From: Rhodococcus tibetensis
Lineage (GTDB): Bacteria > Actinomycetota > Actinomycetes > Mycobacteriales > Mycobacteriaceae
Length of the DNA stretch: 64,000 nucleotides
Reading direction: 5' to 3'
Assembly: GCF_024438035.1 (NCBI RefSeq)
Contig: NZ_JANFQF010000015.1
Span: forward strand, 1-64,000
The position numbers and the translations under genes were made by a program. Under the pieces are notes generated by a model, which was given only the letters and a program-made list of their open reading frames with translations, did not search any database and was not told the DNA's origin. This document shows positions 33,701-50,881 of the stretch, piece by piece (position 1 is the stretch's first letter; every line of letters begins with the position of its first letter).

Positions 33701-33708
33701 GATCCGTT

Positions 33709-35630: not shown

Positions 35631-35894
35631 GCCAGCCGATCGCTGACCACTTCGACTGTGCGCTGTACGCGCACAAGGGAGTGACAGCACGGTCGATCCC
35701 GTTGTTCCGCACAGAAAATCCGGTCGAAGTTGTGTGCATTCGGACTTCGAACAATGAAGCAGTTCCACATCAGGCGGCCGGGTCATCGTTCCTCAGAGCG
35801 AGACTGCTGAGCAGGCAGCGGCCGTTGTGGGGCGAGCACGTTTCGAGCCGGAAGGGCGAAGAGGCCTAGGCCCGGGCGAGGAGCAGACTGCGGC

Positions 35895-36231: not shown

Positions 36232-36564
36232 ACGTCGGTGCCGTGGTCGACACGCTGTCCCGGTGTAGCCCAGGATCCGGCAAATTTTCTGATGTCTCCC
36301 GTGTCTGGCGGAATTCGGATTGTAATTTGTTCCAAGTGCCGTACAGAAATATGTGCCCTGGGACACGTCTGCTTCGTATCGTGGCGCTTTAGGCACTGCC
36401 AGTCGCTTGCACCTGATCGAGGGCTACCCCGGCAGTCGGGGTTCAAAGTGCCGAGTCACCCATTGAGCATTCCGCCTTGCGGTCCACCGCGTGTGACGTC
36501 ACTTTTCACGGCGAGACACGAGTTGCTCGCGCAAGTTTGCTCACCATATGAGAGAGAGTCAGAG

Positions 36565-37317
36565 ATGTCACTGAACGGAAAGATTGCGATCGTCACCGGT
36601 GCTGCACAAGGCATCGGGGAGGCCACCGCGAAACGATTGGCTGCCGAGGGCGCGACGGTGATCGCAGCAGACATTCAGGACACGACGCGCACGGTGGAGG
36701 CCATCGTCACCGCCGGCGGCAAGGCCGAGGCGCACGTGCTCGACGTGCGCATCAAGAGCAACTGGGCCGAGACCGGACGCGAAGTGCTCGAGCGACACGG
36801 CCGCGTCGACCTGCTCGCCAACGTGGCGGGTGTGGTCAATATGCTGAGCGAGGACAGTGTCGTCGGGCTCACCGAAGAAGCGTGGGACCACGTCATCGGC
36901 ACCGACCTCAAGGGCGTGTGGCTGGGCATGCAGGCGGTGATTCCGAACATGATCGAGCGCGGCGGTGGACGGATCGTCAACATCTCGTCGATGGCGGCGC
37001 TACGTGGCCTGCCGAATCTCGCGTCCTATTCGGCCGCGAAGGGCGGGGTCATCTCCCTCACGAAGCAGGCCGCGGTCGAGTACGGAGACAAGAACGTCCT
37101 CATCAACGCCATCTGTCCGGGCACAATCGACACCCCGATCCTCGCGGACATCACCGACGAGATGCGCGAAGCGAACGCCAATGCCCACATCATCCGGCGC
37201 CTGGGTCAGCCGTCCGAGATCGCCTCGATGGTCGCGTACCTCATGCGCGAGGGCAGCTTCCTCACCGGCGAGATTTACCCGGTGGACGGTGGCTGGGCAA
37301 CCAAGGGCAACTTCTGA
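36565..37317 (+). CDS. Short-chain dehydrogenase/reductase
   Basis: The 250-residue classical SDR has TGAAQGIG, an acidic residue after beta-2 (ADIQD) suggesting NAD(H), NVAGV, catalytic Ser in NISSMAAL, YSAAK and the PVDGG C-terminal box. It likely oxidises a secondary alcohol to the ketone used by the monooxygenases that follow. The ATG at 36565 has only a weak purine-rich site upstream. It begins the LLM gene cluster and is separated from the next gene by 123 bp. Confidence 0.85.
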   Translation: MSLNGKIAIVTGAAQGIGEATAKRLAAEGATVIAADIQDTTRTVEAIVTAGGKAEAHVLDVRIKSNWAETGREVLERHGRVDLLANVAGVVNMLSEDSVVGLTEEAWDHVIGTDLKGVWLGMQAVIPNMIERGGGRIVNISSMAALRGLPNLASYSAAKGGVISLTKQAAVEYGDKNVLINAICPGTIDTPILADITDEMREANANAHIIRRLGQPSEIASMVAYLMREGSFLTGEIYPVDGGWATKGNF

Positions 37318-37440
37318 CGGAGTTTGGGCCCACCGACAATCGCGCTCGCTCCGACCCCTTCTCCGGCCGGGGCGAGCACGACACTCTGTGATTCAAGACA
37401 TAACCGATGACCAATGTGACCAAGTTCGAGGAGATGCGCC

Positions 37441-38478
37441 GTGGACGATCAGCACTGTACTTTCGGCCTGTGGTATGACTTCCGAAACCCGGCGCGATGG
37501 CCGCGCACCTTCACCGACTTCTACACACAGAGCCTCGAGCAGATCACTTGGGCCGAGAGCCGCGGAATCGAGTCGGTCTGGCTGACCGAACACCACTTCA
37601 TGACAGACGGGTACACCCCGTCGCCGTTCGTGCTCGCTGCCGCAATCGGAGCCCGGACCGCATCGATGCGAATCGGCACAAATCTCATCGTCTCCCCACT
37701 GCACAACCCGATTCGGCTCGCCGAAGACGCCGCGACACTGTCGCTGCTCACGGGCGGTCGCTTCGACCTCGGTGTGGGGCAGGGCTATTGGCAACCGGAG
37801 TTCGCCGCCTTCGGTCGAGATTTGCGCAACCGCCCGAGCCTGCTCGAGGAAGGCATCGATCTGATCCGACGCGCGTGGTCGGGTGAACCGGCCGAGTTCC
37901 ACGGCAAGCGATACGACTTCCCAGCGCTCCCGGTCACCCCGCAACCGGAAGTCATACCCCAGCTTCTCGTCGGCGCTATGGCCGAACCTGCCATCGAGCG
38001 GGCCGCGCGGATCGCAGACGGGTACCTGAGCACGCAGAACGCGCACCACGCGATGTATCTGGACGCGTTGGATCGGGTTGGGCGGTCTCGGGAGGAAGGC
38101 CGTATCTACGCCGGCCAGTGGGCGGTGGTGGCCGACGACCCCGAGCGCGAATGGGCCCGCATCGGTGAGCACGCTCTGTACCAGATCAACGGATACATCG
38201 AGATGGGGGCCTTCGGTCCACCCGAATCCACCCCCACCTTCGCGACACCGCAGGACCTCGTCGAAGGCGGCGCGTTCACGTTGTGGGATGTCGACACCGC
38301 AGTCACCGAACTCACTGCGCTGCTCGTCTCCCGCCCGCAGATCAAGGACGTGCACTTCTGGGCGCAACTGCCGGGCGAGCCGGTCGACAGCGGTTCGGCG
38401 CGCATCGAACTGCTCACCTCGAAGGTGATCCCCCGGGTACGCGCGGCGCTCGCCGCCGGACAGGAGGTTTCCGTATGA
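37441..38478 (+). CDS. Luciferase-like (LLM) flavin-dependent monooxygenase 1
   Basis: The 345-residue TIM-barrel protein has the LLM signature VWLTEHHFMTDG, MRIGTNLIVSPLHNP, GGRFDLGVGQGY and the flavin-site LLVGAMAEPAIERAARIADG. Family members use reduced FMN from a separate reductase to hydroxylate or Baeyer-Villiger-oxidise ketones. GTG 37441 follows AGGAG with good spacing. The stop overlaps the ligase start (ATGA). The later flavin reductase (44645-45139) is the likely partner. Confidence 0.85.
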   Translation: MDDQHCTFGLWYDFRNPARWPRTFTDFYTQSLEQITWAESRGIESVWLTEHHFMTDGYTPSPFVLAAAIGARTASMRIGTNLIVSPLHNPIRLAEDAATLSLLTGGRFDLGVGQGYWQPEFAAFGRDLRNRPSLLEEGIDLIRRAWSGEPAEFHGKRYDFPALPVTPQPEVIPQLLVGAMAEPAIERAARIADGYLSTQNAHHAMYLDALDRVGRSREEGRIYAGQWAVVADDPEREWARIGEHALYQINGYIEMGAFGPPESTPTFATPQDLVEGGAFTLWDVDTAVTELTALLVSRPQIKDVHFWAQLPGEPVDSGSARIELLTSKVIPRVRAALAAGQEVSV

Positions 38479-40112
38479 CCCCGGTGCCGTCGTTCGGTTC
38501 CAGCAGTCCGCTCGTGATCACCGATTTTCTGTATCGAGCGCGGGATCTCTTCTCCGCCAAGACGATCACGCAGTACCAGGACGACGTCACAGTCTTCGAG
38601 TACACCTACGGCGACTACGCGGACCGGGTCTTCCGGCTGGCCGCGGCGCTGATCGACCTCGGAATCCGGCCCGGGGACCGCGTCGCAACCCTCGCATGGA
38701 ACCACTACCGCCATCTCGAGCTGTATCTGGCCGTCCCCCTCGCAGGGGCCGTGCTCCACACCGTCAACCTGCGGCTCGAACCCGACGAGATCGCCTACAT
38801 CGTCGACCACGCCGACGACCGCATCGTCTTCGCCGACACCTCGCTGCTTCCCCTGCTCGACACCGCGCGGACGCGACGACCCGACATGCCGGTGATCACC
38901 ACCGACGGCGACGGTGCCGCGTTACCGAGCCAGGATGGATTGATCGCCGCGGCCGAACCGCTCACCGACCCGGTGCCTCGGGACGAGAACGACCTCGCGG
39001 CACTGTGTTACACGTCCGGGACGACTGGGCCACCGAAGGGCGTGGGATATTCGCACCGTGCGCTGTACCTGCACACGTTCACCGCGTGCCTGGTCGACGG
39101 ACACGCGATCGGTGAGCGCGACACCGTCTGCCATGTCGTGCCGATGTTCCATGCCAACGCCTGGGGTATTCCGTTCGCCGCGTTGATGACCGGAGCGAAC
39201 CAGGTCCTCCCCGGAGCTCACCCCGCTGTACCGGAGATCGCGACGATCCTCGCAAATGAACAGGTTACGTACACCGGGATGGTGCCGACGGTGGCGGTCG
39301 ATCTGGTCCGTCACGCCCTCGCCTCGGGTATCGACCTGACATGCCTGCGGGCGCTCGTCCTCGGCGGTTCGACCCCGACACCGGAGCTGATCCGCAGCAT
39401 CGAAGAAGATCTCGGGGTGCGGGCCTACCAGGGCTGGGGCATGACGGAACTGTCGCCGATGGGCACTTTTGCGCGCCCTCCCCGCTCGGCCGACGGCGAT
39501 CCACAGCGGCGCTACGACTACATCCGCCGGCAGGGCCGGTTGCTTCCCGGCCTGCGGTGGAAGCTCGTCGACGACGAGGGTGTTGTAGTTCCCCACAATG
39601 GCGTCGATCGAGGCGAACTCCTCATGCGCGGTCCGTGGGTGGCCGAACACTACTTCCGCGACGAGCACCCCGAAGCGTTCGTCGACGGCTGGTTGCGGAC
39701 CGGCGACATCGCGACAATCGACCCCGAGGGTTACCTGACCATCGTCGACCGAGCGAAAGACCTGATCAAGAGCGGCGGTGAATGGATCAGCTCGGTCGCA
39801 CTCGAGCAGGCCCTGACGACGATCCCGCACGTGGCGGAGGCCGCGGTGGTCGCGGTGCCGCACGTGCGGTGGCAGGAACGCCCCTTGGCGTTCGTTGCTC
39901 CCGAGAGCGGGCACGCCCTGGATCCTGCCGCGGTACTTGATGCGCTCGCCGATCTCGTCCCACGGTGGTGGCTGCCCGAACGCATCGAGGTCGTCGAGTC
40001 CCTTCCCCGCACCAGCGTGGGCAAGCTCGACAAGAAGCGCCTGCGCAGCGCGGCCGAGGGCCACCTGTTTGTGGATACCCACAACAGCACCGTCGCCGGG
40101 TCTCTCAGGTAG
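38475..40112 (+). CDS. AMP-forming acyl-CoA synthetase
   Basis: The 545-residue ligase is complete. It has the P-loop YTSGTTGPPKGV, A5 WGMTELSPMG, A7 GWLRTGDIATID, the hinge DLIKSGGEWISS and the catalytic Lys in RTSVGKLDKKRLR. It activates a carboxylic acid as acyl-AMP then acyl-CoA, probably the ring-opened product of the pathway. The gene overlaps LLM1 by ATGA. A copy of the cluster's 16-bp inverted repeat lies inside the gene at 39583-39598. Confidence 0.9.
   Translation: MTPVPSFGSSSPLVITDFLYRARDLFSAKTITQYQDDVTVFEYTYGDYADRVFRLAAALIDLGIRPGDRVATLAWNHYRHLELYLAVPLAGAVLHTVNLRLEPDEIAYIVDHADDRIVFADTSLLPLLDTARTRRPDMPVITTDGDGAALPSQDGLIAAAEPLTDPVPRDENDLAALCYTSGTTGPPKGVGYSHRALYLHTFTACLVDGHAIGERDTVCHVVPMFHANAWGIPFAALMTGANQVLPGAHPAVPEIATILANEQVTYTGMVPTVAVDLVRHALASGIDLTCLRALVLGGSTPTPELIRSIEEDLGVRAYQGWGMTELSPMGTFARPPRSADGDPQRRYDYIRRQGRLLPGLRWKLVDDEGVVVPHNGVDRGELLMRGPWVAEHYFRDEHPEAFVDGWLRTGDIATIDPEGYLTIVDRAKDLIKSGGEWISSVALEQALTTIPHVAEAAVVAVPHVRWQERPLAFVAPESGHALDPAAVLDALADLVPRWWLPERIEVVESLPRTSVGKLDKKRLRSAAEGHLFVDTHNSTVAGSLR
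39583..39598. promoter_or_regulatory. Cluster operator-like repeat TTGTAGTTCCCCACAA (intragenic)
   Basis: It matches the TTGTRRN4CYACAA pattern of the sites at 42883, 46399 and 48369 but lies within the ligase coding sequence, ~590 bp upstream of the LLM2 gene. It could be a roadblock or looping site, or chance. Confidence 0.35.
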
Positions 40113-40185
40113 GGCGACCGTCGTTCTAGCGTCGGTTCCACCGGCCCGCCCAAGAGGGGCATCCGTCGTCACGAGGAGGAACACC

Positions 40186-42150
40186 GTGAAGTTCGGAATC
40201 TTCTACGTCCTCGAATGCCCCGACCACGACTTCACACGGGCCTACCGCGAGATGCTCGAGCAGATCTCCTACGCCGAACAGCTCGGCTTCGACGAGGTGT
40301 GGCTGGCAGAGCATCACGGCAGCGACTACGGTTCGATGCCCTCACCGCAGATCGCGGCTGCGGCCATCGCCGAACGCACCGAGCGGATGCGCATCGGAAT
40401 CGCGGTGAGCAACCTGACCTTCGATTGGCCGGTGCGCATCGCGGAGGACTACGCGATGGTCGACGTCCTGTCGGGCGGACGGCTCGATTTCGGCGTGGGC
40501 CGCGGTTACCAGCCGCAGGAGTTCCACAACATGGGCGTCGCCGAGCTCCAGGGTGAGAGCCGGGAGGTGTTCGTCGAAGCCCTGGAGATCGTGCGGGGCC
40601 TGTGGAGCAAGCCGGTCGGTGAGCCGTTCTCCTATCGTGGCAGACACTTCGACCTCGACAACGTCGACTGCCGGCCCACCCCGCTGCAGCGTCCGACTCC
40701 GCCGATCTACATCGCCTCGATCAGTCCCGAGACCCTCGACCTGGCCGCGGACCAGGGCTACAACATGTTGGTCACCCCCACGTTGATGACGATGCCAGAA
40801 CTGAACGCGTTCGTCGTCGACGCGAAACGCCGGTTGCGCGATCACGGTCGCGACATCCTCGATCTCGATTTTCCGATGAACTGGCAAATCCACCTCGCCG
40901 ACACCGAGGAGACCGCGGTAGAGAACGCACGCGAGGCGCTGACCTGGTATTTCGACGCAGCCTTGGCTGCGGTGCCGCAGGGGCCGGATGTGCCGCCGAC
41001 GTACGAGCGGTATGCCGAGTTGGTCACCGCGACCGACGAGGCCGGCGGTATGACCGTCGAGGGCTTGCGGGACGGCGGAGTCGTCTACGTGGGCGACCCC
41101 GACGGGCTGATCCGGCAGATCGACGCCCTGCACGACGAGACCGGGCTGCAGCACTTGATCTGCTGGATGCGTTTCGGCGGACTCGAGCACGAGAAGGTCA
41201 TGCGGTCGCTCGAGCTGTTCGCCGAGCACGTCATTCCGCGATTCCGGGACCGTGAGCCCGTCGTCCCGCGCGCGCTGCGCGATCACTCGGCGCCCCACAC
41301 CTCTTCCCACCCGTTCAATTCCAATTCCCCATTCGCACAGGAGGACACCATGGGATTTCTGCCCGTCGAAAACGACCGCAGCATCTACTTCGAACATCAC
41401 CGGGGTGAAGGCCGGCCGATCGTGCTGATCCACGGCTGGGGCGCGACCGCCCGCGCCTGGGACACGACGCTTCCGGCGTTGCGCGCCAACGGAAACGAAG
41501 TCGTCACCGTCGATCTGCGGTGCTGTGGCCGCTCCGACAAGGACTTCGACGACGTCTCGATCGCCGCTCTGGCCTCCGACATCGTCCGACTCGTCGAACA
41601 CCTCGGCCTCGACCGACCGGTGATCAACGGTTGGTCGCTCGGTGGCGCCGTCGCCACCGCGGCGGTCGCCCAACTCGGCGACCGGGCCTCTGCACTGGTG
41701 CTCACCGGCGGGGCCTCCCCGCGGTACACCGCCACCGACGACTGGCCCCACGGCGGTGCCGTCGCCGACGTCGAGGCCGTGCTGGCGTCGGCCGCCGCCA
41801 ATCGTGCCGAGACCTTCCGCGGGGTCGCCGCCGCGGTGTGCGCCGAGAATCCCGGCGAGGCCGTGCTCGACTCGATCTGGGACATGTTCATGTCGATGGG
41901 GCCGCGCGGTGACGATTCGCTGCGCGACCTGGCCACGGTGGATCTGCGCAAGGAGATCGCCTCGCTCGAGGTGCCGATCCTGCTGTTGCACGGTCGAGCC
42001 GACGCGTTCGTCCCGTTCTCCGCCGCCGAAGCCGTGCCCACGCTCAACAACCGGGCCGAGGTCGTCGAATTCACGTCGAGCGGCCACGCCCCGTTCCTCG
42101 AGGAGCGCGATCGCTACCTCGCCGAGCTGACGGGATTCCTGAACCGATGA
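40186..42150 (+). CDS. LLM monooxygenase 2 fused in frame to an alpha/beta-hydrolase
   Basis: One open frame of 654 residues. Residues 1-~370 are an LLM flavin monooxygenase (VWLAEHHGSDYGSMPSP, MRIGIAVSNLTFDWP, GGRLDFGVGRGYQP). A ~25-residue polar, Ser/Pro/His-rich linker leads to Met389, which starts an alpha/beta-hydrolase: oxyanion HGWG, nucleophile elbow NGWSLGGAV, Asp in GRADAFVPF and His in SSGHAPFLE. The GTG at 40186 follows GAGGAGGA. An independent AGGAGG (41339-41344) lies five bases before the ATG of the hydrolase (41350), so a separate 266-residue hydrolase can also be made. A monooxygenase plus lactone or ester hydrolase makes chemical sense. Confidence 0.8.
   Translation: MKFGIFYVLECPDHDFTRAYREMLEQISYAEQLGFDEVWLAEHHGSDYGSMPSPQIAAAAIAERTERMRIGIAVSNLTFDWPVRIAEDYAMVDVLSGGRLDFGVGRGYQPQEFHNMGVAELQGESREVFVEALEIVRGLWSKPVGEPFSYRGRHFDLDNVDCRPTPLQRPTPPIYIASISPETLDLAADQGYNMLVTPTLMTMPELNAFVVDAKRRLRDHGRDILDLDFPMNWQIHLADTEETAVENAREALTWYFDAALAAVPQGPDVPPTYERYAELVTATDEAGGMTVEGLRDGGVVYVGDPDGLIRQIDALHDETGLQHLICWMRFGGLEHEKVMRSLELFAEHVIPRFRDREPVVPRALRDHSAPHTSSHPFNSNSPFAQEDTMGFLPVENDRSIYFEHHRGEGRPIVLIHGWGATARAWDTTLPALRANGNEVVTVDLRCCGRSDKDFDDVSIAALASDIVRLVEHLGLDRPVINGWSLGGAVATAAVAQLGDRASALVLTGGASPRYTATDDWPHGGAVADVEAVLASAAANRAETFRGVAAAVCAENPGEAVLDSIWDMFMSMGPRGDDSLRDLATVDLRKEIASLEVPILLLHGRADAFVPFSAAEAVPTLNNRAEVVEFTSSGHAPFLEERDRYLAELTGFLNR
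41339..41344 (+). promoter_or_regulatory. Internal Shine-Dalgarno AGGAGG before the hydrolase domain
   Basis: A consensus ribosome site inside the LLM2-hydrolase frame, 5 nt before the in-frame ATG at 41350. It indicates that the hydrolase was, or still is, translated on its own. Confidence 0.6.
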
Positions 42151-42872
42151 GCACACCCAAGACCTGGCTGGTCACCGGCGGATCCCGCGGAATCGGGCGC
42201 GCCGTCGTCGAGAACGCGACCGCGCGCGGCGACCGGGTCGCAGTCTTCGCCCGCAAGCCGGCCACCGTGCAGTGGACGCATCCCGAGAAGGTCGTGGAGA
42301 TCCCCACCGATATCAGTGACGCCGCCTCCCTGGGGCTCGCTGTGGACACGGTGTTCGAGACGTTCGGTTCGCTCGACGTTGTGGTCAACGCCGCCGGGGT
42401 ACACCGCGGCGGCCGGATCGACGACCTCTCCCGAGCACACTGGGACGAGGTGCTCGCCACTAACCTCACCGGCGCATTCGAACTCGCCCGCACGGTGGTT
42501 CCGCGCCTGGAGGACGGCGCCGCTGTCATCAATGTCGGTGCTGTCGTGGGTTTTCGGGGCTTTCCGGGAGATGTCGCCTACGGTGCGGCGAAGGCTGGGC
42601 TCAGCGGGCTGACACAGGTGCTGGCCGTCGAACTGGCTCCACGGGGAATTCGCGTGAATCTGGTGATCCCCGGGGTGGTGGATACCGACATGACCTCCGC
42701 GCTGACCGGACGGGCGCGCGAGCGGCTTGTCGCGGCGATTCCGATGGGTCGTACGGGCCGTGCCGAAGAGATTGCGCAGGTCATCGTGGGTGTCGCGGAT
42801 TCGACCTACATGACCGGCAGCATCGTGGCCACCGACGGCGGGTTGATGAGCTCGTTCAGCTCCCGATCCTGA
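42147..42872 (+). CDS. Short-chain dehydrogenase/reductase
   Basis: The 241-residue SDR has TGGSRGIG, Arg-Lys after beta-2 (FARKPATV; suggests NADP), NAAGVH, YGAAK and the closing ATDGG. The usual catalytic Ser of beta-5 is replaced in NVGAVVGF (Ala), which may lower activity or shift the role. The start overlaps the hydrolase stop (ATGA). It probably interconverts an alcohol and ketone in the same pathway as the neighbouring LLM enzymes. Confidence 0.85.
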   Translation: MSTPKTWLVTGGSRGIGRAVVENATARGDRVAVFARKPATVQWTHPEKVVEIPTDISDAASLGLAVDTVFETFGSLDVVVNAAGVHRGGRIDDLSRAHWDEVLATNLTGAFELARTVVPRLEDGAAVINVGAVVGFRGFPGDVAYGAAKAGLSGLTQVLAVELAPRGIRVNLVIPGVVDTDMTSALTGRARERLVAAIPMGRTGRAEEIAQVIVGVADSTYMTGSIVATDGGLMSSFSSRS

Positions 42873-42882
42873 CCCTAAGTCG

Positions 42883-42898
42883 TTGTAGCGACCTACAA
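42883..42898. promoter_or_regulatory. Cluster operator-like repeat TTGTAGCGACCTACAA
   Basis: The perfect inverted repeat extends to 10-bp arms (42879-42888 and 42893-42902, spacer CGAC). It is 118 bp upstream of the SnoaL-like gene and is the best copy of the cluster motif. Confidence 0.6.
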
Positions 42899-43015
42899 CG
42901 ACCGGGAAGTCAGCGTGACCCACACCACAGCACTCCGACTACTCTCGACACCAGCAGCACGGAAGTTGTTTCCACGCTGCGAGATTCATTCAATTCCTCT
43001 CTCGAAGGAGCTCAG

Positions 43016-43435
43016 ATGGGCAACGTCGCGCGTGCCGGAAGCCTCGAAGCAGCCAACAAGAAGCTCGTCGCCGAATTCATGGAGGTCTTCTCCACCGGCA
43101 ACGTCGAGGCGATCCTCGGCTACCTTGCACCCACCGCCACCTGGTGGGTTGCCGGCACCATCGACGGAATCTCCGGCACCAAGAACAAGCAGGAGTTCCG
43201 CGAGATGCTCTCGGGTCTGTCCGCGAATACCAAGACCGGCGCGATCGCTCTGACCCCGATTGCGTGGACCGCGGAAGACGACCGTGTCGCGGTGGAGACC
43301 GAGTCGTACTCGGAGATGAACAACGGCCGCGTCTACAACAACCTCTACCACTTCGTCTTCGAGGTCCGAGACGGACTCATCCAGTCCGTCAAGGAGTTCC
43401 TCGACACCGAACACACGCGGGCCGTGTTCCTCTGA
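43016..43435 (+). CDS. SnoaL-like (NTF2-fold) protein
   Basis: The 139-residue product has the NTF2-like cone: helices with NKKLVAEFMEVFSTGN, then strands ending FEVRDGLIQSVKEFLDT. This fold is used by SnoaL cyclases, ketosteroid isomerase and limonene-1,2-epoxide hydrolase. The Arg-x-Asp pair of the epoxide hydrolase triad is not at the matching place (ETES instead of ERVD), so that reaction is doubtful. The ATG follows AAGGAG. Sitting between an SDR and an LLM enzyme, it may isomerise or hydrate an intermediate. Confidence 0.75.
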   Translation: MGNVARAGSLEAANKKLVAEFMEVFSTGNVEAILGYLAPTATWWVAGTIDGISGTKNKQEFREMLSGLSANTKTGAIALTPIAWTAEDDRVAVETESYSEMNNGRVYNNLYHFVFEVRDGLIQSVKEFLDTEHTRAVFL

Positions 43436-43482
43436 TCCCGAATCACTCCCCCATTCACGCACTGACGCAAGGAGATACATCC

Positions 43483-44580
43483 ATGGATGTCGGAATGCTA
43501 CTCGTCTTCCAGAACTACCACGAGAACGTCAGCGATCAGGAGGTGTTCGTCCGCGAGCTCGAGATGGGCGTCGCCGCGGAGAAGTACGGCTTCGATGCCG
43601 TCTGGTCCGCCGAGCACCACTTCGACGACTACTCGATGTGCCCGGACAACATGCAGATCATGTCGTATCTCGCGGCCCGCACGTCGACGGTCAAGCTCGG
43701 CACCGGCGCCGTGATCCTGCCGTGGAACAACCCCGTCCGCGTCGTCGAGAAGATGACGATGCTCGACATGATGTCCGGTGGTCGCGCTCTGTACGGCATG
43801 GGCCGCGGCCTGGCCAAGATGGAGTACGACGCGTTCGGAATCCCGATGGACGAAGCGCGTGGACGCTTCGTCGAAAGCGCCGAGATGACGATCGAGGGTC
43901 TGCGCACCGGCGTCGTCGACAATCCCGACGGCGAGTTCTACCCACAGTCACGCGTCGAGATCCGCCCCGCGCCGAACCCGGCATTCGAGTGGGGACGCGA
44001 CCGTCTGTTCGGTGCCGCGATGTCGCCCGACTCGGTACCGGTCATCGCCGATCTCGGCGTGCGCATGATGACGTTCATGCAGTTCGAGTTCGACAAGCAC
44101 GTCGAGACGATCACCCGGTGGCGCGACCTCTACCGCGAGCGCTGGGGCACCGAGCCGTTGCCGCCGGTCATCCAGGACTTCGTGGTCTGCCACGAGGACG
44201 AGGAGGAAGCCCGCCGACTCGCCTACGCGCACACCGCCCGCTATTTCCTGTCGGTCATCAAGCACTACGACTTTGCCGGCGAGCACTGGCGGAACACGAA
44301 GGGCTACGAGACCTACCAGGTGGGCGCGGACATGATCCGCGAGGCGGGTATGGAAGCCGCCGCGGACGCCTACGTCGAGGCCAACGTGTACGGCACGCCC
44401 GAGCAGATCGTCGAGAAGTACGCCGCCCGGCACGAGAAGATCGGGGACTTCTTCGCCAACGCCGCCTTCGCGTTCGGTGGCATGCCGATCGACCAGGCCG
44501 AGAAGGCCCTGAAGCTCTACGGCGAAAAGGTCGTCCCCGAGCTCCAGAAGATGAAGGCACCGGTTCCGGCCAGCGCCTGA
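43483..44580 (+). CDS. Luciferase-like (LLM) flavin-dependent monooxygenase 3
   Basis: The 365-residue LLM protein reads VWSAEHHFDDYSMCPDN, LGTGAVILPWNNPVRV, GGRALYGMGRGLAKMEYDAF and a long C-terminal helix ending. The ATG follows AAGGAG by eight bases. It differs from the other two LLM proteins by inserts after the barrel beta-6 region and may use another substrate. It needs reduced FMN, presumably from the next gene. A strong hairpin follows its stop, so LLM3 and the SnoaL-like gene may form a separately controlled unit. Confidence 0.85.
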   Translation: MDVGMLLVFQNYHENVSDQEVFVRELEMGVAAEKYGFDAVWSAEHHFDDYSMCPDNMQIMSYLAARTSTVKLGTGAVILPWNNPVRVVEKMTMLDMMSGGRALYGMGRGLAKMEYDAFGIPMDEARGRFVESAEMTIEGLRTGVVDNPDGEFYPQSRVEIRPAPNPAFEWGRDRLFGAAMSPDSVPVIADLGVRMMTFMQFEFDKHVETITRWRDLYRERWGTEPLPPVIQDFVVCHEDEEEARRLAYAHTARYFLSVIKHYDFAGEHWRNTKGYETYQVGADMIREAGMEAAADAYVEANVYGTPEQIVEKYAARHEKIGDFFANAAFAFGGMPIDQAEKALKLYGEKVVPELQKMKAPVPASA

Positions 44581-44589
44581 CCTCAATTG

Positions 44590-44620
44590 GGCGGTGCCCG
44601 GGTACGCACCGGGCACCGCC
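44590..44620 (+). terminator. 12-bp perfect hairpin between LLM3 and the flavin reductase
   Basis: Arms GGCGGTGCCCGG and CCGGGCACCGCC with loop GTACGCA. No T-run follows, so partial termination or mRNA stabilisation of the LLM3 message, rather than a full stop, is likely; the reductase gene begins 24 bp later. Confidence 0.6.
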
Positions 44621-44644
44621 TGTCCCATCCCTTCGGAGGACAAA

Positions 44645-45139
44645 ATGAATTCCACTGCCACCCAAGACTTCACTAGCGAATTTCGCGATGCGATGGCTAG
44701 CGTGTGCACCCCCGTGACGGTGGTGACCGCACTCGACGGCGCCCGGCCGCACGGGACCACCGTGAGCGCCTTCGCGTCGCTGTCGATGAATCCTCCGATG
44801 GTCCTGGTCGCACTCGACCGCGGCTCCGACCTGCTCGCGGTGGTGCGTGAGCACGGCAGGTTCGGAATCAACGTCCTCGGTCACGGTCAGGACGGTCTGG
44901 CCCTGACCTTCGCCCGCAAGGGCAGCGACAAGTTCGACGGCATCGGATGGTCCCTGTCCGCAGGTGTGCCCCGCATCGACGGTGCACCCGGTTGGGTGGC
45001 CTGCAGCGTCGCCGATCTCGTCGAAGGCGGCGACCACGTCGTGGTTCTCGGGCACGTCGAGCACGCCGATCGCGGGGACCACCCGCCGCTGACGTATCAC
45101 CGGCGCACTTTCGGCACCCACAGCGCAGAACAGGAGTAA
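44645..45139 (+). CDS. NAD(P)H:flavin oxidoreductase
   Basis: The 164-residue product belongs to the HpaC/flavin reductase-like FMN-binding split-barrel family: TPVTVVTALDGARPHGTTVS, AFASLSMNPPMVLVALDR, the binding segment FGINVLG and the C-terminal PLTYHRRTFG. It provides free FMNH2 or FADH2 to a two-component monooxygenase, evidently the LLM enzymes of this cluster. ATG 44645 follows GGAGGA. Confidence 0.9.
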   Translation: MNSTATQDFTSEFRDAMASVCTPVTVVTALDGARPHGTTVSAFASLSMNPPMVLVALDRGSDLLAVVREHGRFGINVLGHGQDGLALTFARKGSDKFDGIGWSLSAGVPRIDGAPGWVACSVADLVEGGDHVVVLGHVEHADRGDHPPLTYHRRTFGTHSAEQE

Positions 45140-45144
45140 TCGCC

Positions 45145-46386
45145 ATGCCACGGACCCCCGCTCAGGATGTCGAACTCGCGGTCGAGACCCTCGCCGCCGG
45201 CGGCATCGTCGTCGTCGTGGACGACGACGATCGCGAGAACGAAGGCGACCTCGTCGCCGCCGCGGCGGCGATCACTACCCAGCAGATGGCGTTCATCGTC
45301 CGGCACACGACCGGCATCATCTGTGCGCCGATGACGACGCACCGCGCCGACGCGCTCGACCTGCCCCTCATGGTCGAGCGCAACACCGACGCGCACGGCA
45401 CCGCCTTCACCATCACCGTCGATCACGTCTCCACCGGCACCGGCGTCAGCGCCGCAGACCGAACCGCAACGGTGCGGGCCCTCGCCTCCGACGCAACCGT
45501 GCCCGCCGACCTGCGCCGACCCGGCCACATCTTTCCGCTGCGCGCCCGAGAAGGCGGCGTCCTGGCCCGCGCCGGCCACACCGAGGCGACCGTCGACCTG
45601 CTGCGTCTCGCCGGTGCCGGCGACGTAGGAGTCATCGGCGAGATCGTCGCCGAGGACGGATCCATGCGCCGCGGCGCCGACCTGATCGAGTTCGCCCGCG
45701 AGCACGACCTACCGATACTGCGCATCGCCGATCTGGTCCGCTACCGCGCCGCGACCGAACCATTCGTCGAGCTCGTCGCCGAATCCACCATGCCCACCGA
45801 GTTCGGTCAGTTCCGGGCGGTGGCGTTCCGGTCGGTCCTCGACGGGACCGAACACCTCGCGCTGGTCATGGGCGACGTCGCAGCCGCAGGACGCACCCCG
45901 GAAGGAGTGCTGGTGCGGGTGCACAGCGAGTGCCTCACCGGTGACATCCTCGGATCCCTGCGCTGCGACTGCGGAGCCCAGCTCGAACGTGCCCTCGCCG
46001 AGATCGCCCGCGAGGGATGCGGAGTGCTGGTGTACCTGCGGGGCCACGAAGGGCGTGGGATTGGGCTCGCTCACAAGATCCGCGCCTACTCACTGCAGGA
46101 GCAGGGACTCGACACCGTCGATGCCAACCGCGCGCTGGGACTGCCCGACGACTCACGTAGCTACGGTGTCGGCGCACGCATCCTCGCCGACCTCGGCGTC
46201 CGGCGGATGCGGCTGATCACCAACAACCCCAGCAAACTCGGTGGTCTGGAAGGTTACTCGATCGACATCGTCGGCCGCGTGGCACTCCCCACCGTGATCA
46301 CCGTCCACAACGTGCGGTATCTGCGCGCGAAGCGGGACCGAATGGGACACGACCTCGATACCCTCCCGAAAGTGATCGCTACCTGA
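45145..46386 (+). CDS. ribBA: Bifunctional riboflavin biosynthesis protein RibBA
   Basis: The 413-residue product joins DHBP synthase (residues ~1-205; DDDDRENEGDLV and RRPGHIFPLRAREGGVL...GHTEA) to GTP cyclohydrolase II (~210-410; zinc site C-x10-C-x-C in ECLTGDILGSLRCDCG, RGHEGRGIGL). These are the two entry steps of riboflavin synthesis. It lies five bases after the flavin reductase gene with AGGAG upstream. A housekeeping ribBA normally sits with ribH or ribE; here none are present, so it is probably an extra copy that raises flavin supply for the LLM enzymes. Confidence 0.9.
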   Translation: MPRTPAQDVELAVETLAAGGIVVVVDDDDRENEGDLVAAAAAITTQQMAFIVRHTTGIICAPMTTHRADALDLPLMVERNTDAHGTAFTITVDHVSTGTGVSAADRTATVRALASDATVPADLRRPGHIFPLRAREGGVLARAGHTEATVDLLRLAGAGDVGVIGEIVAEDGSMRRGADLIEFAREHDLPILRIADLVRYRAATEPFVELVAESTMPTEFGQFRAVAFRSVLDGTEHLALVMGDVAAAGRTPEGVLVRVHSECLTGDILGSLRCDCGAQLERALAEIAREGCGVLVYLRGHEGRGIGLAHKIRAYSLQEQGLDTVDANRALGLPDDSRSYGVGARILADLGVRRMRLITNNPSKLGGLEGYSIDIVGRVALPTVITVHNVRYLRAKRDRMGHDLDTLPKVIAT

Positions 46387-46398
46387 GAAGGCGGTACG

Positions 46399-46414
46399 TT
46401 GTGATATCCCACAA
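46399..46414. promoter_or_regulatory. Cluster operator-like repeat TTGTGATATCCCACAA
   Basis: Arms TTGTG and CACAA, 53 bp upstream of the regulator's ATG and 13 bp after the ribBA stop. Probably an autoregulation site. Confidence 0.5.
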
Positions 46415-46466
46415 AGGCGGCGGGGTGGAGATACAGCGACTACATCCGCGAAAGTGAGGGACTGGC

Positions 46467-48341
46467 ATGGCACTGCTGCCGAGCATGGGTGTTGAGACGA
46501 TGAGTCCGCATCCCGACGCCACCGGCGAGACAATGCCACCCCCGGCAACCCGCCCCCGCGAACGCGATGTCATCACCGCCTTCGCCGAGATCACCGGTGA
46601 GGCCATCACCGACGCCGACCTCGAACAGCTGCTGCGCTCTGTCTGCGTGAAACTATGCAGCGTGATCGGGGTATCGCGCTCGTCGCTCTACCTCAAGCGA
46701 CCCGACGGTCGCTTCCGCGGCGCCGCCGGGCACTGCGCGGATAAAGGCGACCTCACCGAGGCCGTCAAACGCCAGGAGTCGGGCGTCGCCGGTGACCGGT
46801 TCAGCCGGGAAGTCATCGAAACCGGACGACCGGTACTCATCGATGACGTCACCAACGATCCGCGGCCGCACCGGCGCACCATGGAGCACTGGCGGGTGCG
46901 CGCTATGCTCGGCGTCCCGCTGGTGTTCGACGGCGAGGTCATCGGCCTGCTCTTCGTCGACAACAAGGACCGTGAGCACCTCTACACTCAGGAAGACATC
47001 GAGATCGCCGAGATGTTCGCGCAGCTCAGCGCGCTGTTCATCAGCCAGGCGATGCTCAACGTCCGCTTGCGCAGCCAGGCATCGGAGATCGCCCGCAGCC
47101 GCAACACCCTCGCCTACCTCGCGGACGTGCACCGCAAGCTCACCAACGCCGTCCTCGAAGGCGCTGACATCCACAGCGTGGTGACGCTGCTCAGCGACCT
47201 GTCCGCCAAACCCGTCGTGCTCTACGACGAGGACTTTCGGGTGCTCGCCTGGGCTGCTCCCCCCACACTCGGTCTCGACCGCCCCCCGGCGATCTCCGAG
47301 CAGATCCGGGGGATGCCATCGGTCGAAGCCGAACTCGCCGCGCTGAGCCCGGAACGTCCGTCCGCGGTGGTCCCACCCACCCTGTCCGTCGGCCTCGGCC
47401 GTCGGCACCTGATGTGCCGACTGGTGATCGAAGGCAAACCGAACGGCTACCTCAGTATCGTCGAGGTCGGCCGGTCGCTCGAACAGGTCGACGCGAACCT
47501 CGCCGAGCACGGAGCAACGGTGCTCTCACTGCAGATCCTTTCCGAACGCCGACAGATCGAGACGCAAGGGCAGGCCCGCGACGACTACCTGTCCGACCTG
47601 TTGCGCAACACCCGCGACAAGGAACACCTGTTGCGCCGCGGCCCGCAGTTCGGAATCGACCTGACCCACCCCCACGTACTGGTTCGGTTCACTCTTTCGG
47701 CAGATCCCCGGATGACAGCCTCCGCGGCGCAACGGCTGGTCACTCGCCGCTTCCGAGAGATCCTGGGCATCGACGAACCGGCGGCGGTGAAACTGCCCGG
47801 CAGCATCATCGTGCTCGTACCGTTGCCCGACGGCGGCTCCGCCGAGGAACTCCGGACCGTCCGCGACCGTGTCAGTGAAGTGCAAACCTCGCTGCAGGCA
47901 CACCTCGCTACGGGCGCGACCGTTATCTCCGGAGTGTGCCGCGACGTCACCGACTTCCCGCCGGCCGCGCGCGAGATGCGCGAGGTCGCCGACATCGCGC
48001 GATCGTTCGAGTGGTCCGACGGTGTCCTCGACGTCACCGAGCTCGGACTGTTTCGCGTCGTCGTCAGCTCGGGCCGCGTCAAGGAGGCAGTCCGCTTCGC
48101 CCACGACTACGTCCACGCGGTCCAGGGCGCCGACGACGGAGTTCTCCTCGAGACGTGGCGGGCATTCGTCATCGCGGAGGGACGGGTGCAAGGCGCAGCC
48201 GTCGCACTGAACGTGCACGAGAACACGGTGCGATACAGGATGGGGAAGATCAAGGAAATCACCGGCCTGGACCCGACGAGCCTCGACGTTTTGCTCTCCG
48301 CGCGCCTGGCCTTTCAAATCCTCGACTTCGCAGCTCGCTGA
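46467..48341 (+). CDS. GAF-domain PucR/CdaR-type transcriptional regulator
   Basis: The 624-residue product has a GAF sensory domain at ~50-200 (SRSSLYLKRPDGRFRGAAGH, then MLGVPLVFDGEVIGLLFVDN), a connecting coiled region, a GGDEF-like CdaR middle domain, and a C-terminal PucR helix-turn-helix (AAVALNVHENTVRYRMGKIK, then ITGLDP). These regulators control catabolic genes in response to small metabolites. It lies between the LLM/ribBA genes and the kinase/ACAD pair, with operator-like repeats in front of itself and on both sides, so it is the likely controller of the cluster. ATG 46467 has GAGGGA upstream. Confidence 0.85.
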   Translation: MALLPSMGVETMSPHPDATGETMPPPATRPRERDVITAFAEITGEAITDADLEQLLRSVCVKLCSVIGVSRSSLYLKRPDGRFRGAAGHCADKGDLTEAVKRQESGVAGDRFSREVIETGRPVLIDDVTNDPRPHRRTMEHWRVRAMLGVPLVFDGEVIGLLFVDNKDREHLYTQEDIEIAEMFAQLSALFISQAMLNVRLRSQASEIARSRNTLAYLADVHRKLTNAVLEGADIHSVVTLLSDLSAKPVVLYDEDFRVLAWAAPPTLGLDRPPAISEQIRGMPSVEAELAALSPERPSAVVPPTLSVGLGRRHLMCRLVIEGKPNGYLSIVEVGRSLEQVDANLAEHGATVLSLQILSERRQIETQGQARDDYLSDLLRNTRDKEHLLRRGPQFGIDLTHPHVLVRFTLSADPRMTASAAQRLVTRRFREILGIDEPAAVKLPGSIIVLVPLPDGGSAEELRTVRDRVSEVQTSLQAHLATGATVISGVCRDVTDFPPAAREMREVADIARSFEWSDGVLDVTELGLFRVVVSSGRVKEAVRFAHDYVHAVQGADDGVLLETWRAFVIAEGRVQGAAVALNVHENTVRYRMGKIKEITGLDPTSLDVLLSARLAFQILDFAAR

Positions 48342-48368
48342 ACAGCGCGGACACCTACCCAGAGAGCA

Positions 48369-48384
48369 TTGTAGGAATCCACAA
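48369..48384. promoter_or_regulatory. Cluster operator-like repeat TTGTAGGAATCCACAA
   Basis: Lies 55 bp upstream of the phosphotransferase ATG, in the only gap between the regulator gene and the kinase/ACAD pair. Confidence 0.5.
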
Positions 48385-48438
48385 CAGCCCTCCGAAAAGT
48401 ACAGTGCCACCACAGGACAACGCCGATACGTTCTACCC

Positions 48439-49491
48439 ATGCCGACCGACACCACACACAGCGACCTCCTCGGAGTCGATCTCACCGCAGTGCGGGACTG
48501 GATGGACGCGCAGGGACTGGGGTCCGGCGACCTGACCGCGGTCTCCCCTATCGGAGGCGGGACCCAGAACATCATGCTCGGCTTCGAACGCTCCGGGACC
48601 CGCTATGTCCTGAGACGAGGACCGAAACACCTGCGCCCGCATTCGAACCGCATGATGGTCCGGGAGATGACGCTGCTCCGTGCCTTGTCCGGTACCGCCG
48701 TTCCCCACCCGACGTTCGTCGCCGGCAACGAGAACACCGACGTACTGGGTGCGGCGTTCTACCTGATGCACGCTGTGGACGGCTACAACGCCGCCGAAAG
48801 CCTCTCCCCGGTCCACGCAGCGAACCACAAGCTCCGGCACCGCATGGGCCTGGAAATGATCGACGCGCTCACCGAACTCGGCCGGATCGACCCCCCGGCG
48901 ATCGGACTGACCGACTTCGGCCGACCCGACGGATTCCTCGAACGCCAGGTCCGCCGGTGGAGCAGCGAACTCGAGTCGTACACACTCTTGCCCGGATATC
49001 CCACCGTGTTGCTTCCCGGCGTCGACCGGATCGCCTCGTGGCTCGACGACAACCGGCCCCGGCAATGGTCACCGGGCATCCTGCACGGCGACTACCACGT
49101 CTCCAACGTCATGTTCGACCACGTCGACCCGACAGTAACGGCGATCGTCGACTGGGAGATGGCCACCATCGGCGACCCACTGCTCGACCTCGGGTGGATC
49201 TTCGCGATGTGGCCCGATCATGACGGCGGACCCGATCTACTCGAGAGCCGTCTCGCCGTCGCCGGCGGCCTGCCGACCCGGGCGGAACTCCTCGAGCGGT
49301 ACGCCGCGAACACCGATCGGGACCTGAGCGCGATCGACTGGTACACCGCTCTCGCCGGTTTCAAACTCGGGATCATCCTCGAAGGCACCTACGCCCGCGC
49401 CTGCTCCGGGCAAGCATCCACCGAGGTCGGCGACCGGCTGCACCGGTACGCCGTCCAACTGTTCGAGCGCACCCTGCGCTTCCTCGACTGA
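48439..49491 (+). CDS. APH-family phosphotransferase (4-hydroxyacyl-CoA kinase-like)
   Basis: The 350-residue product has the aminoglycoside phosphotransferase kinase fold: GGGTQNIML near residue 40, the conserved Lys/Arg zone, catalytic loop ILHGDYHVSNVMFD and metal-binding IVDWEMATIGDPLLDLGW. In this subfamily the partner is usually an ACAD, as in human ACAD10/11 (kinase and ACAD in one chain) and Pseudomonas LvaA/LvaC, where the kinase phosphorylates the 4-hydroxyl of an acyl-CoA. The next gene is exactly such an ACAD. Antibiotic resistance is unlikely here. Confidence 0.8.
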   Translation: MPTDTTHSDLLGVDLTAVRDWMDAQGLGSGDLTAVSPIGGGTQNIMLGFERSGTRYVLRRGPKHLRPHSNRMMVREMTLLRALSGTAVPHPTFVAGNENTDVLGAAFYLMHAVDGYNAAESLSPVHAANHKLRHRMGLEMIDALTELGRIDPPAIGLTDFGRPDGFLERQVRRWSSELESYTLLPGYPTVLLPGVDRIASWLDDNRPRQWSPGILHGDYHVSNVMFDHVDPTVTAIVDWEMATIGDPLLDLGWIFAMWPDHDGGPDLLESRLAVAGGLPTRAELLERYAANTDRDLSAIDWYTALAGFKLGIILEGTYARACSGQASTEVGDRLHRYAVQLFERTLRFLD

Positions 49492-49522
49492 CCCACCGCA
49501 CCGCACACCGGAGGTACGAAAC

Positions 49523-50818
49523 ATGGCATGGGAATTCTCCACCGAACCCGAGTTCCAGCAGAAGCTGGACTGGATGACCGCATTCGTGCGTGACGAGATC
49601 CGTCCGCTCGAAACTCTCGAACTGACGTGGCCGCAGCTGCTCGAGGCCATCTCCCCGCTGCAACGTGAGGTCAAGGCCCAGCAGCTGTGGGCCGCACACC
49701 TCGACCCCGAGCTCGGCGGTCAGGGCTACGGTCAGGTCAAGCTCGGCCTGATGCACGAGATCCTCGGTTCCTCTCCACTCGGTCCGCTCGTGTTCGGCTG
49801 CCAGGCACCGGATTCCGGCAACGCTGAAATCCTCGCCGCGGTAGGCACCGACGAGCAGAAACGCCAATGGCTCGGCCCGCTCCTGGCGGGTGAAAAGTAC
49901 TCGGCCTTCGCACTGACCGAACCCGACAACGCCGGCGCCGACCCGACGAACCTGCAGACGACTGCGGTGCGAGACAGCAACAGCTGGATTCTCAACGGAC
50001 ACAAGTGGTTCATCAGCAACGCATCGACCGCCGACTTCGTCATCGTCGTCGCCGTCACCGAACCCGACGCCGAACGGCACCGCCGTGCATCGCAATTCAT
50101 CGTCCCAATCGACGCACCGGGCCTCGATGTGGTACGAGACATCGCGTCGATGGAGAACCCGTCGCCGCGCGAGCACACCTACGGCTCGCACTGCGAGGTA
50201 ATGCTACGCAACGTGCGTGTCGGTAACGACGCGCTGCTCGGCAATCCCGGCGACGGGTTCCTGATCTCCCAAAAGCGCCTCGGTCCCGGGCGTATCCACC
50301 ACTGCATGCGGTGGATCGGTCAGGCCAACCGCGCCTTCGACATGATGTGCGAGCGCGCCACGTACCGCTTCGCGCACGGCAGCGTCCTCGGTGAAAAGCA
50401 GACCGTCCGCAACTGGATCGCCGACTCCGCCGCCGAGATGCAGGCCCTGCGACTGATGACGCTGCAGGCGGCCTGGATGATCGACACCAAGGGCACCAAG
50501 GAGGCCCGCAAGGAGATCGCGATGATCAAGTACTACGGCGCGAAGATCCTGCACGACATCATCGACCGGTCCGTCCAGACCCACGGCTCCCTCGGCTACA
50601 GCTCCGACCTGCCCCTGGACTTCATGTACCGGGCGGCACGTGCAGCGCGCCTGTACGACGGCCCCGACGAGGTGCACCGCGACACCGTCGCCAAGCTCAT
50701 CCTGCGCGGCTACGAGGCCCCCGCCGACCGGATTCCGACCGAGCACGTGCCCACGCGCCGTCGCGCCGCGCAGCAGCGCTACGCCGCGCTGTTCGACGAG
50801 ATCCTGGCCTCAGTCTGA
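49523..50818 (+). CDS. Acyl-CoA dehydrogenase, ACAD10/11-LvaC type
   Basis: The 431-residue flavoprotein has the ACAD domains (FALTEPDNAGADPTNLQTTA, HKWFISNASTADF, MRWIGQANRAFDMM). Where most ACADs have Y-E-G-T, it reads YDGPDEVHRDTVAKL, the D-G-P-D-E-V-H signature of the ACAD10/ACAD11 group. The gene starts 31 bp after the kinase gene, with GGAGG upstream. I infer that it removes phosphate from a 4-phosphoacyl-CoA and rearranges the chain so that beta-oxidation can continue. A strong hairpin ends the operon. Confidence 0.85.
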   Translation: MAWEFSTEPEFQQKLDWMTAFVRDEIRPLETLELTWPQLLEAISPLQREVKAQQLWAAHLDPELGGQGYGQVKLGLMHEILGSSPLGPLVFGCQAPDSGNAEILAAVGTDEQKRQWLGPLLAGEKYSAFALTEPDNAGADPTNLQTTAVRDSNSWILNGHKWFISNASTADFVIVVAVTEPDAERHRRASQFIVPIDAPGLDVVRDIASMENPSPREHTYGSHCEVMLRNVRVGNDALLGNPGDGFLISQKRLGPGRIHHCMRWIGQANRAFDMMCERATYRFAHGSVLGEKQTVRNWIADSAAEMQALRLMTLQAAWMIDTKGTKEARKEIAMIKYYGAKILHDIIDRSVQTHGSLGYSSDLPLDFMYRAARAARLYDGPDEVHRDTVAKLILRGYEAPADRIPTEHVPTRRRAAQQRYAALFDEILASV

Positions 50819-50881
50819 TCCCCACTCTTGCCGGGACGAGGTCCGAGCCGGTGCGGGGCCTCACGACGAATACTCTTTGTA

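Follow-up and report, generated by a model that had tools for sequence, protein, structure and literature searches.

An accessory RibBA beside a flavin reductase in a Rhodococcus gene cluster for the putative oxygenative degradation of a ketone

Introduction

Several described systems share parts of the gene cluster analysed here, which comprises twelve genes (A to L) at positions 36565–50818 of a 64,000-nucleotide stretch of Rhodococcus tibetensis DNA (the window). Its last two genes resemble the levulinate (lva) operon of Pseudomonas putida and the mammalian proteins ACAD10/ACAD11, in which an APH-type kinase is paired with an acyl-CoA dehydrogenase (ACAD) bearing an HCMR motif, an upstream Arg and a catalytic Asp. 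The likeness extends to a CoA ligase and to short-chain dehydrogenases/reductases (SDRs), since the lva operon presumably has a ligase and an SDR too. Unlike lva, whose features are taken from the accessible portions of papers on ACADs, the cluster adds three luciferase-like monooxygenases (LLMs), a hydrolase, a flavin reductase and RibBA, which joins 3,4-dihydroxy-2-butanone 4-phosphate (DHBP) synthase to GTP cyclohydrolase II. The limonene pathway of Rhodococcus erythropolis DCL14 reportedly combines an LLM, an NTF2-fold protein, an SDR and a ring-opening logic like those of the cluster. In contrast to that pathway, the NTF2-fold protein F has no family match to limonene-epoxide hydrolases (LEHs), and a kinase/ACAD pair and RibBA are added.

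The type II Baeyer–Villiger monooxygenases, among them the diketocamphane monooxygenases, a progesterone-converting LLM from Caenibius and, as a side activity, LuxAB, have the LLM fold and receive reduced flavin mononucleotide (FMNH2) from a separate reductase. LuxAB and the diketocamphane monooxygenases take up FMNH2 by free diffusion, and both perform Baeyer–Villiger oxidation of ketones, including alicyclic ones (PMC9864536, in excerpt), while a type II LLM turns progesterone into testosterone acetate (PMC12239570, in excerpt). The LLMs of the cluster differ from these enzymes in their weak similarity to the Baeyer–Villiger enzyme 4uwm, and LLM2 runs on into a hydrolase.

Two systems link riboflavin genes to oxygenases. 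Photobacterium has riboflavin genes downstream of lux (available text of PMC10049116), which places them, as in our cluster, with an FMNH2-consuming enzyme of LLM fold and a flavin reductase; the cluster, in contrast, has RibBA only, is probably catabolic and belongs to Actinobacteria. The ipp (2-isopropylphenol) cluster of Rhodococcus sp. D-6 carries, between the oxygenase gene ippA1 and the reductase gene ippA2, a DHBP synthase gene (orf2560; 42% to a RibBA) that is co-induced at log2 4.46 (PMC12442392). The main text of that paper, as far as accessible, uses ‘RibBA’ once (in its Table 1) and riboflavin never. The ipp system differs from ours in its group D (ACAD-fold) monooxygenase, its aromatic substrate and its synthase of 214 amino acids without a second domain.

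Results

Twelve genes form one conserved unit

Pfam and NCBIfam matches identified 12 plus-strand genes filling 36565–50818 (Table 1), and we regard their identities and their unity as practically certain. An initial annotation made from the bare sequence had named three LLMs, a flavin reductase, RibBA, SDRs, a hydrolase, a CoA ligase, a SnoaL-like protein and a kinase/ACAD pair. All were found on this strand, but the hydrolase is no clean separate gene and a regulator, J, had been overlooked.

The window was compared with seven relatives by blastn, counting matches of more than 150 bases, and each relative gave one continuous match. In four of them (L004, L005, L033 and L034) it begins at 36564–36565 and ends at 50818–50822, coinciding to within four bases with the A start codon and the L stop codon. 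Because DNA similarity stops this close to the limits of the cluster, we treat it as one unit. The match is 278 bases longer on the left in L032 (36287–50818), spans 37323–50818 in L006, whose locus is missing A, and ends at the contig end in L011. No flank match was detected over about 6.4 kb upstream and 1.3 kb downstream in L004 and L005, or about 10 kb on each side in L032–L034. All complete genes and both domains of D are under purifying selection, with dN/dS of 0.03–0.24 against up to five relatives. There are four-base overlaps between B and C and between D and E, 5 bases separate H from I, and H starts 64 bases after G, so that a partner flavin reductase for the LLMs is present. J sits between I and K and has a homologue inside the cluster in most relatives.

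With the LLM2–hydrolase protein as query, 28 loci were found. Most of the gene set recurs on long contigs of Rhodococcus, Thermocrispum municipale, Williamsia, Gordonia, Amycolatopsis and Prauserella, although A, K and L stand at another end in some of them; the coherent gene unit proposed initially is thus upheld by the shared block edges in four relatives and by recurrence in several genera. Three linear megaplasmids, from Rhodococcus sp. ZPP, R. rhodochrous GD02 and Rhodococcus sp. PD04, carry orthologous clusters, and their Rhodococcus hosts come from soil, compost and coking wastewater. LLM3 (G) is 97% identical in L004 and 97.8% in L032, and among 26 genomes of its own genus the orthologue occurs in this genome only, with 43–44% homologues in two others. 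Of 61 genomes sampled evenly from the order, three have a match better than E 1e-90 (this one and two at 65% and 43% identity). This patchy occurrence, together with the megaplasmid copies, indicates that the cluster is probably moving horizontally.

Gene content varies between loci. K is 37–40% and L 58–60% identical in Amycolatopsis, Prauserella and Geodermatophilus, and these low values suggest that their K/L may be a substitute pair of the same kind. L010 is without A, F and RibBA; L022 without LLM2, F and the flavin reductase; and L023 without LLM2, the flavin reductase and RibBA. Five Pseudonocardia loci (L024–L028) hold a short version consisting of LLM1, the hydrolase, LLM3 and a distant regulator in 5/5, A and the SnoaL-like protein in 4/5 and the ligase in 3/5; RibBA and the flavin reductase are missing from these. 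The T. agreste locus (L013) has only B, C and most of LLM2, which speaks against a self-contained module. A scan for promoters and terminators returned one promoter-like site (1.2 expected) and seven terminator-like sites (7.1 expected), no more than chance would give. An Rfam scan of the window gave nothing at gathering scores and detected no FMN riboswitch. Among the few flanks tested, conserved extra genes beside the cluster did not include a common entry oxygenase; in Gordonia L018 the flanks hold glmS- and NnrD-type genes, and in Pseudonocardia L025 a gene for a TetR regulator.

Accessory RibBA copies often lie beside flavin reductases

Both domains of the cluster RibBA (I) have intact motifs (RENEGD, RPGH, GHTEA, CDCG and RGHEGRGIGL). 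It is an extra copy, as initially annotated: the genome also has a rib-operon copy (C3:199751–200962, by ribD, ribE and ribH) and a third, partial match. The latter (L003/L078, G000:C3:12264–13235) is missing its N-terminal part, reads RCGCG rather than RCDCG at the zinc motif, and no flavin reductase was found nearby.

We then counted RibBA neighbours in the order sample of 61 genomes, of which 60 match RibBA at E 1e-60 and 10 have more than one copy. The loci comprised all 19 copies of nine multi-copy genomes (our genome excluded) and 20 hand-picked from the 50 single-copy genomes. A copy with RibD, RibE or RibH within 3.5 kb was classed as a rib-operon copy and any other as accessory; the counts cover copies above the E threshold, single-domain copies below it being left out. 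The profile used to detect flavin reductases was built from H and one relative and went through a single round of refinement on hits from these very loci; with it, a flavin reductase was found within 1.5 kb of 8/10 accessory copies and 0/29 rib-operon copies (Fisher 7e-7). An LLM lay within 5 kb of 3/10 and 0/29, respectively (Fisher 0.013). A second, non-random set of 32 chosen loci from cluster-carrying genomes, which leaves out the cluster itself and includes our genome's other two copies, gave a flavin reductase near 15/24 accessory and 0/8 rib-operon copies, and an LLM near 10/24 and 0/8. These neighbour counts tie accessory RibBA to flavin reductases in general and less to LLMs. In a phylum sample of 70 genomes, left out of the neighbour count, 63 matched RibBA, 57 of them with a single copy.

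In a tree of 89 RibBA copies, 20 cluster copies fall on one branch with moderate support (91/86). This branch is nested in a group of 45 copies (99/99) that holds 0/37 rib-operon copies. Accessory copies group with the cluster copies in 25/32 cases; the other 7/32 are placed with rib-operon copies at other points of the tree, in several cases on long branches. The acidic motif of the DHBP synthase domain reads DDEDRENEGD in the rib-operon copies compared and DD[A/D]DRE[N/D]EGD in most cluster and close accessory copies, the Thermocrispum copy L006 keeping the E.

A ribBA in a catabolic operon had initially been called unusual. This judgement is not supported, as accessory copies recur beside flavin reductases, the DHBP synthase gene of ipp is co-induced, and riboflavin genes are linked to lux in Photobacterium. 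Further LLM genes with a RibBA or DHBP synthase gene after them occur in R. oxybenzonivorans pRB98 and on a Pseudonocardia plasmid. According to a figure legend in PMC6498646, one R. jostii/R. ruber cluster of unassigned substrate contains both a DHBP synthase/GTP cyclohydrolase II and an NADH-FMN oxidoreductase. For Sinorhizobium RibBA, a role in flavin secretion and a modular riboflavin supply have been proposed (PMC9478397, in excerpt), while the available part of PMC12855090 describes a mycobacterial rib operon with RibA2 and has no bearing on accessory copies. Titles and abstract openings listed in searches of an open-licence library gave no account of an accessory-RibBA rule or of the cluster, which is weak evidence of absence.

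Two findings speak against the overall module proposed below. Across both sets, 11/34 accessory copies have no flavin reductase within 1.5 kb, and RibBA is missing from the clusters L010, L023, L024–L028 and L029, so it is not indispensable. Other RibBA copies were present in 4/4 genomes with RibBA-less clusters that were searched (L010, L023, L025 and L028). On balance, I quite probably serves to supply FMN.

The terminal gene pair carries an ACAD11-type signature

L matches ACAD11 (8v3u) at E 1.5e-85. When RLGPGRIHHCMR of L was aligned with 8v3u, it contained the HCMR motif and an Arg 8 residues upstream of its His. The residues reported for ACAD11 are R626, H634, R637 and the catalytic D753, with R631 common to the family (PMC12440821, in excerpt); L has identical residues at all five positions, the chain numbering being shifted by one. 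In an alignment of 25 rows, each of at least 35% identity, HCMR occurs in 22 (HAMR in two, HVMR in one) and the upstream Arg in all. The catalytic Asp that replaces the usual ACAD base (YDGPDEVH in L, ADGPDEVH in ACAD11) is likewise present in 25/25. K matches the kinase domain of ACAD11 in the PDB at E 1.1e-24 and keeps the catalytic motifs HGDYH..N and DWEMATIGDP. K would thus be a 4-hydroxyacyl-CoA kinase and L the enzyme that eliminates phosphate from 4-phosphoacyl-CoA. Given the ACAD11/LvaC signature in L, the 4-hydroxyacyl-CoA step proposed in the initial annotation is well supported; it is very probable, and the best supported chemical step of the pathway.

A distant parallel on an R. 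qingshengii plasmid (L036) combines a kinase (34%), an ACAD (36%), an SDR (36%) and an LLM (46% to G) with an annotated hydrolase. As a parallel to the whole cluster it falls short, since its hydrolase is not recognizably similar to that of D and no similarity to RibBA or the flavin reductase was seen there.

LLM2 and the hydrolase share a reading frame

The frame between LLM2 and the hydrolase could be compared in 20 of 33 loci; the other 13 include L011, which is truncated at the contig end, and L012, in which a frame shift occurs earlier. The frame is open in 8/20 loci, from Rhodococcus and T. municipale, whereas a stop intervenes in 12/20; all eight Rhodococcus and Thermocrispum loci in which both parts were found have them in one frame. 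The linker is less constrained than the domains (dN/dS 0.23–0.49), yet open. In the predicted model of D (pTM 0.57), a disordered linker (pLDDT below 50 at residues 367–387) connects two well-folded parts. The open frame bears out a physical coupling of the hydrolase to an LLM.

A plain fusion is weakened as an interpretation of D by a conserved internal Shine–Dalgarno sequence: GGAGG with an in-frame ATG precedes the hydrolase in all six copies compared (the window, L004, L005, L006, L032 and L033), reading CGGAGG in L004. The open frame and this conserved start together make it possible that the cell produces both an LLM2–hydrolase fusion and a free hydrolase. The hydrolase motifs GWS[LF]GG, Asp and GHAPF are kept in 30/30 aligned rows. 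All three plasmid gene tables examined (L032, L033 and L034), which are incomplete, enter the hydrolase as its own coding sequence and have none for LLM2, perhaps owing to the frame that runs on into the hydrolase. LLM1 (B) adjoins a hydrolase homologue in Pseudonocardia L024–L028 and in the gammaproteobacterial L031. The LLM2–hydrolase link and the Pseudonocardia arrangement would both fit an oxygenase product that is opened by the hydrolase.

Cofactor and chemistry of the oxygenases

The nearest PDB sequence matches of B, D and G are luciferase types, which we take to be FMN-dependent enzymes, ahead of F420 enzymes. For B these are 8cbb (E 2.3e-30) and 8k74 (E 8.8e-26), with the first F420 enzyme, 9fp4, at E 3.4e-15. 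In a Foldseek search with D, RslO1 ranks best, and RslO1, LuxA and the Enhygromyxa luciferase precede F420 reductases and 4uwm (E 2.7e-17). Luciferase-type structures and the adjoining flavin reductase would fit the initial assignment of the LLMs as FMN enzymes, though less clearly for LLM1.

Baeyer–Villiger oxidation of an alicyclic ketone is our tentative choice for these enzymes, at slightly less than an even chance. Several points weigh against it. Sequence similarity to 4uwm is weak for B (E 3.3e-8) and G (E 5.4e-4), and 4uwm is not among the best 60 of 216 PDB sequence matches for D. TIGR03619 (F420_Rv2161c) is the NCBIfam model that fits B best, at 138.9 bits against a cut-off of 166.9. 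LLMs are also able to epoxidize, to hydroxylate and to cleave C-S bonds.

In a limonene-type alkene route, an LLM would epoxidize a cyclic alkene, F open the epoxide, an SDR oxidize the diol and a second LLM open the ring, followed by the hydrolase, the ligase and K/L. We consider this unlikely. It would account for three different LLMs, which are mutually only about 29–33% identical over aligned parts, and the best Foldseek match of D, RslO1, is presumably an epoxidase. The NTF2 fold predicted for F (pLDDT 87.6) is shared with LEHs, which are among its top structural matches; ketosteroid isomerases and polyketide cyclases, however, match it about equally well in Foldseek and VIA-align, so that F decides neither for a ketone nor for an alkene start. 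At the sequence level F has no Pfam LEH match at E 0.01, and most LEH chains reach a profile E of 0.01–0.02. The strand that in LEHs carries Arg-x-Asp of the triad Arg-x-Asp...Asp seems to read ETESY in F, by eye and without structural alignment. F belongs to a tight family, with 39 invariant columns across 39 chosen sequences, and is a probable acid-base enzyme. Its SnoaL_2 family includes a Psychrobacillus protein (P0219) from another phylum at 72% identity, which suggests that the pathway, at least in part, has been transferred widely.

That LLM1 is an F420-dependent reductase, leaving only two LLM oxygenases, is more doubtful still. TIGR03619 is the best model of B, but scores below its cut-off, the nearest solved structures of B are luciferase types ahead of 9fp4, and B adjoins the hydrolase homologue in the short clusters. 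F420 enzymes form one clade descended from an FMN ancestor (PMC6279831, in excerpt), and PMC11852219, PMC9861168 and PMC7661421, in the parts accessible, deal with other LLM genes.

Desulfonation, or C-S or C-N cleavage for sulfur or nitrogen acquisition, is very improbable: the LLM superfamily is broad, and SsuD, SfnG and RutA types occur among weak matches, but the SsuD and SfnG models score under the luciferase-type ones and far under cut-off, no ABC transporter domain is found among the 12 genes, and the CoA ligase and ACAD11-type pair indicate carbon catabolism. Equally improbable is a biosynthetic cluster for a secondary metabolite, for which RslO1- and PuwE-type LLMs and SnoaL-type cyclases, found in biosynthesis, speak among the structural matches, and against which stand the ligase and ACAD11-type pair, the megaplasmid copies in Rhodococcus from soil, compost and coking wastewater, and the fact that no polyketide synthase, nonribosomal peptide synthetase or terpene synthase domain is reported for the 12 genes.

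For a ring ketone, the presence of K and L suggests that ring opening and beta-oxidation yield a 4-hydroxylated intermediate. Rings with an even number of members, once opened and beta-oxidized, would end at a 4-hydroxyacyl compound (6-hydroxy to 4-hydroxy), and odd-membered rings would have no need of K/L; such an endpoint would explain the presence of the pair.

Table 1. Genes and features of the cluster in window coordinates.
Feature	Description	Position	Strand	Evidence or remark
A	SDR dehydrogenase, 250 aa; alcohol/ketone step presumed	36565..37317	+	PF13561/PF00106; first base of conserved DNA block in L033, L034
B	LLM1, luciferase-like monooxygenase, 345 aa	37441..38478	+	PF00296 E 1.1e-50
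C	Acyl-CoA ligase, 545 aa	38475..40112	+	PF00501 E 1e-77; NF004837 525 bits, cut-off 476
D	LLM2 then alpha/beta hydrolase, one reading frame, 654 aa	40186..42150	+	PF00296 then PF00561
Shine–Dalgarno	AGGAGG within D, ahead of possible internal hydrolase start	41339..41344	+	
D-hyd	Hydrolase from internal ATG, 266 aa	41350..42150	+	Ser/Asp/His motif positions present
E	SDR, 241 aa	42147..42872	+	PF13561 E 5.4e-53
F	SnoaL_2 / NTF2-fold protein, 139 aa	43016..43435	+	PF12680
G	LLM3, 365 aa	43483..44580	+	PF00296 E 2.8e-57
H	Flavin reductase, 164 aa	44645..45139	+	PF01613 E 9.6e-39
I	Accessory RibBA, DHBP synthase + GTP cyclohydrolase II, 413 aa	45145..46386	+	NF006803 605 bits, cut-off 569
J	GAF / GGDEF_2 / HTH_30 (PucR-type) regulator, 624 aa	46467..48341	+	PF01590, PF17853, PF13556
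K	APH-type small-molecule kinase, 350 aa	48439..49491	+	PF01636
L	ACAD10/11-LvaC-type dehydrogenase, 431 aa	49523..50818	+	Last base of conserved DNA block

Neighbouring DNA

On its left the cluster borders on decayed genes. Broken remnants of a ferredoxin reductase-like (Pyr_redox_2) and an HpcH/HpaI-like stretch, both below cut-off, occupy 35120–36231, between a P450–ferredoxin pair (33709–35105) and the cluster. Further upstream, an extradiol-dioxygenase-like (Glyoxalase) protein, an MhpA-like FAD monooxygenase, the P450 and the ferredoxin form a run (29834–35105) that is possibly a separate aromatic pathway. The P450, MhpA-like and extradiol-type genes gave no DNA match of more than 150 bases in the available flanks of the seven relatives. 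On the other side, a minus-strand gene (51970–55443) for a Ser/Thr kinase-AAA-MalT/TPR protein adjoins the cluster. Partial matches to it lie near LLM genes in L036 (58% over 22%) and L139 (32% over 16%), and it may be a recurrent neighbour.

Discussion

Taken together, our results lend an even chance to the view that the cluster is a self-contained, probably horizontally moving catabolic module acting on a ketone that is probably ring-shaped. Sequence comparison supports the unit, the gene identities, the LLM–hydrolase coupling, the 4-hydroxyacyl signature and the accessory RibBA lineage. We infer the Baeyer–Villiger chemistry, the ring substrate, the order of steps, the FMN supply role of I and the role of J. 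An SDR (A and/or E) would oxidize an alcohol to the ketone, into which the FMNH2-dependent LLMs (B, the LLM2 part of D, and G) would insert oxygen, most likely by a Baeyer–Villiger reaction, giving a lactone or ester. The hydrolase would open this product to a hydroxy acid, and ligase C would convert the acid to its CoA ester, to be shortened by beta-oxidation where needed. K would phosphorylate the resulting 4-hydroxyacyl-CoA, and the ACAD11/LvaC-type L would remove the phosphate to leave an enoyl-CoA for completion by beta-oxidation. Flavin reductase H would provide FMNH2, taken up by free diffusion as reported for such enzymes. The accessory RibBA would raise riboflavin and FMN output while the cluster is on, the later steps being left to the housekeeping RibD, RibE and RibH, and J would sense the inducer.

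On a wider scale, it is a balanced proposition that Actinobacteria possess a second RibBA lineage, off the rib operon, that travels with genes for flavin reductases and two-component flavin monooxygenases as a portable ‘flavin on demand’ module. The cluster would be a complete example, in which flavin synthesis, an LLM-catalysed oxygenation of a new terpenoid-like ketone, a hydrolytic step and an ACAD11-type 4-hydroxyacyl-CoA bypass are inherited as one unit, and would represent a new ring-degradation pathway.

The cluster offers a compact, testable pathway that would combine the action of LLM oxygenases, a hydrolase and an ACAD11-like pair of bacterial origin. What seemed an oddity, a ribBA gene in a catabolic operon, becomes a countable rule, namely that accessory RibBA copies lie by flavin reductases. 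If this rule is causal, riboflavin entry enzymes belong to oxygenase operons, which would matter for the prediction of degradation pathways and for the engineering of FMNH2-dependent biocatalysts, where flavin supply may be limiting.

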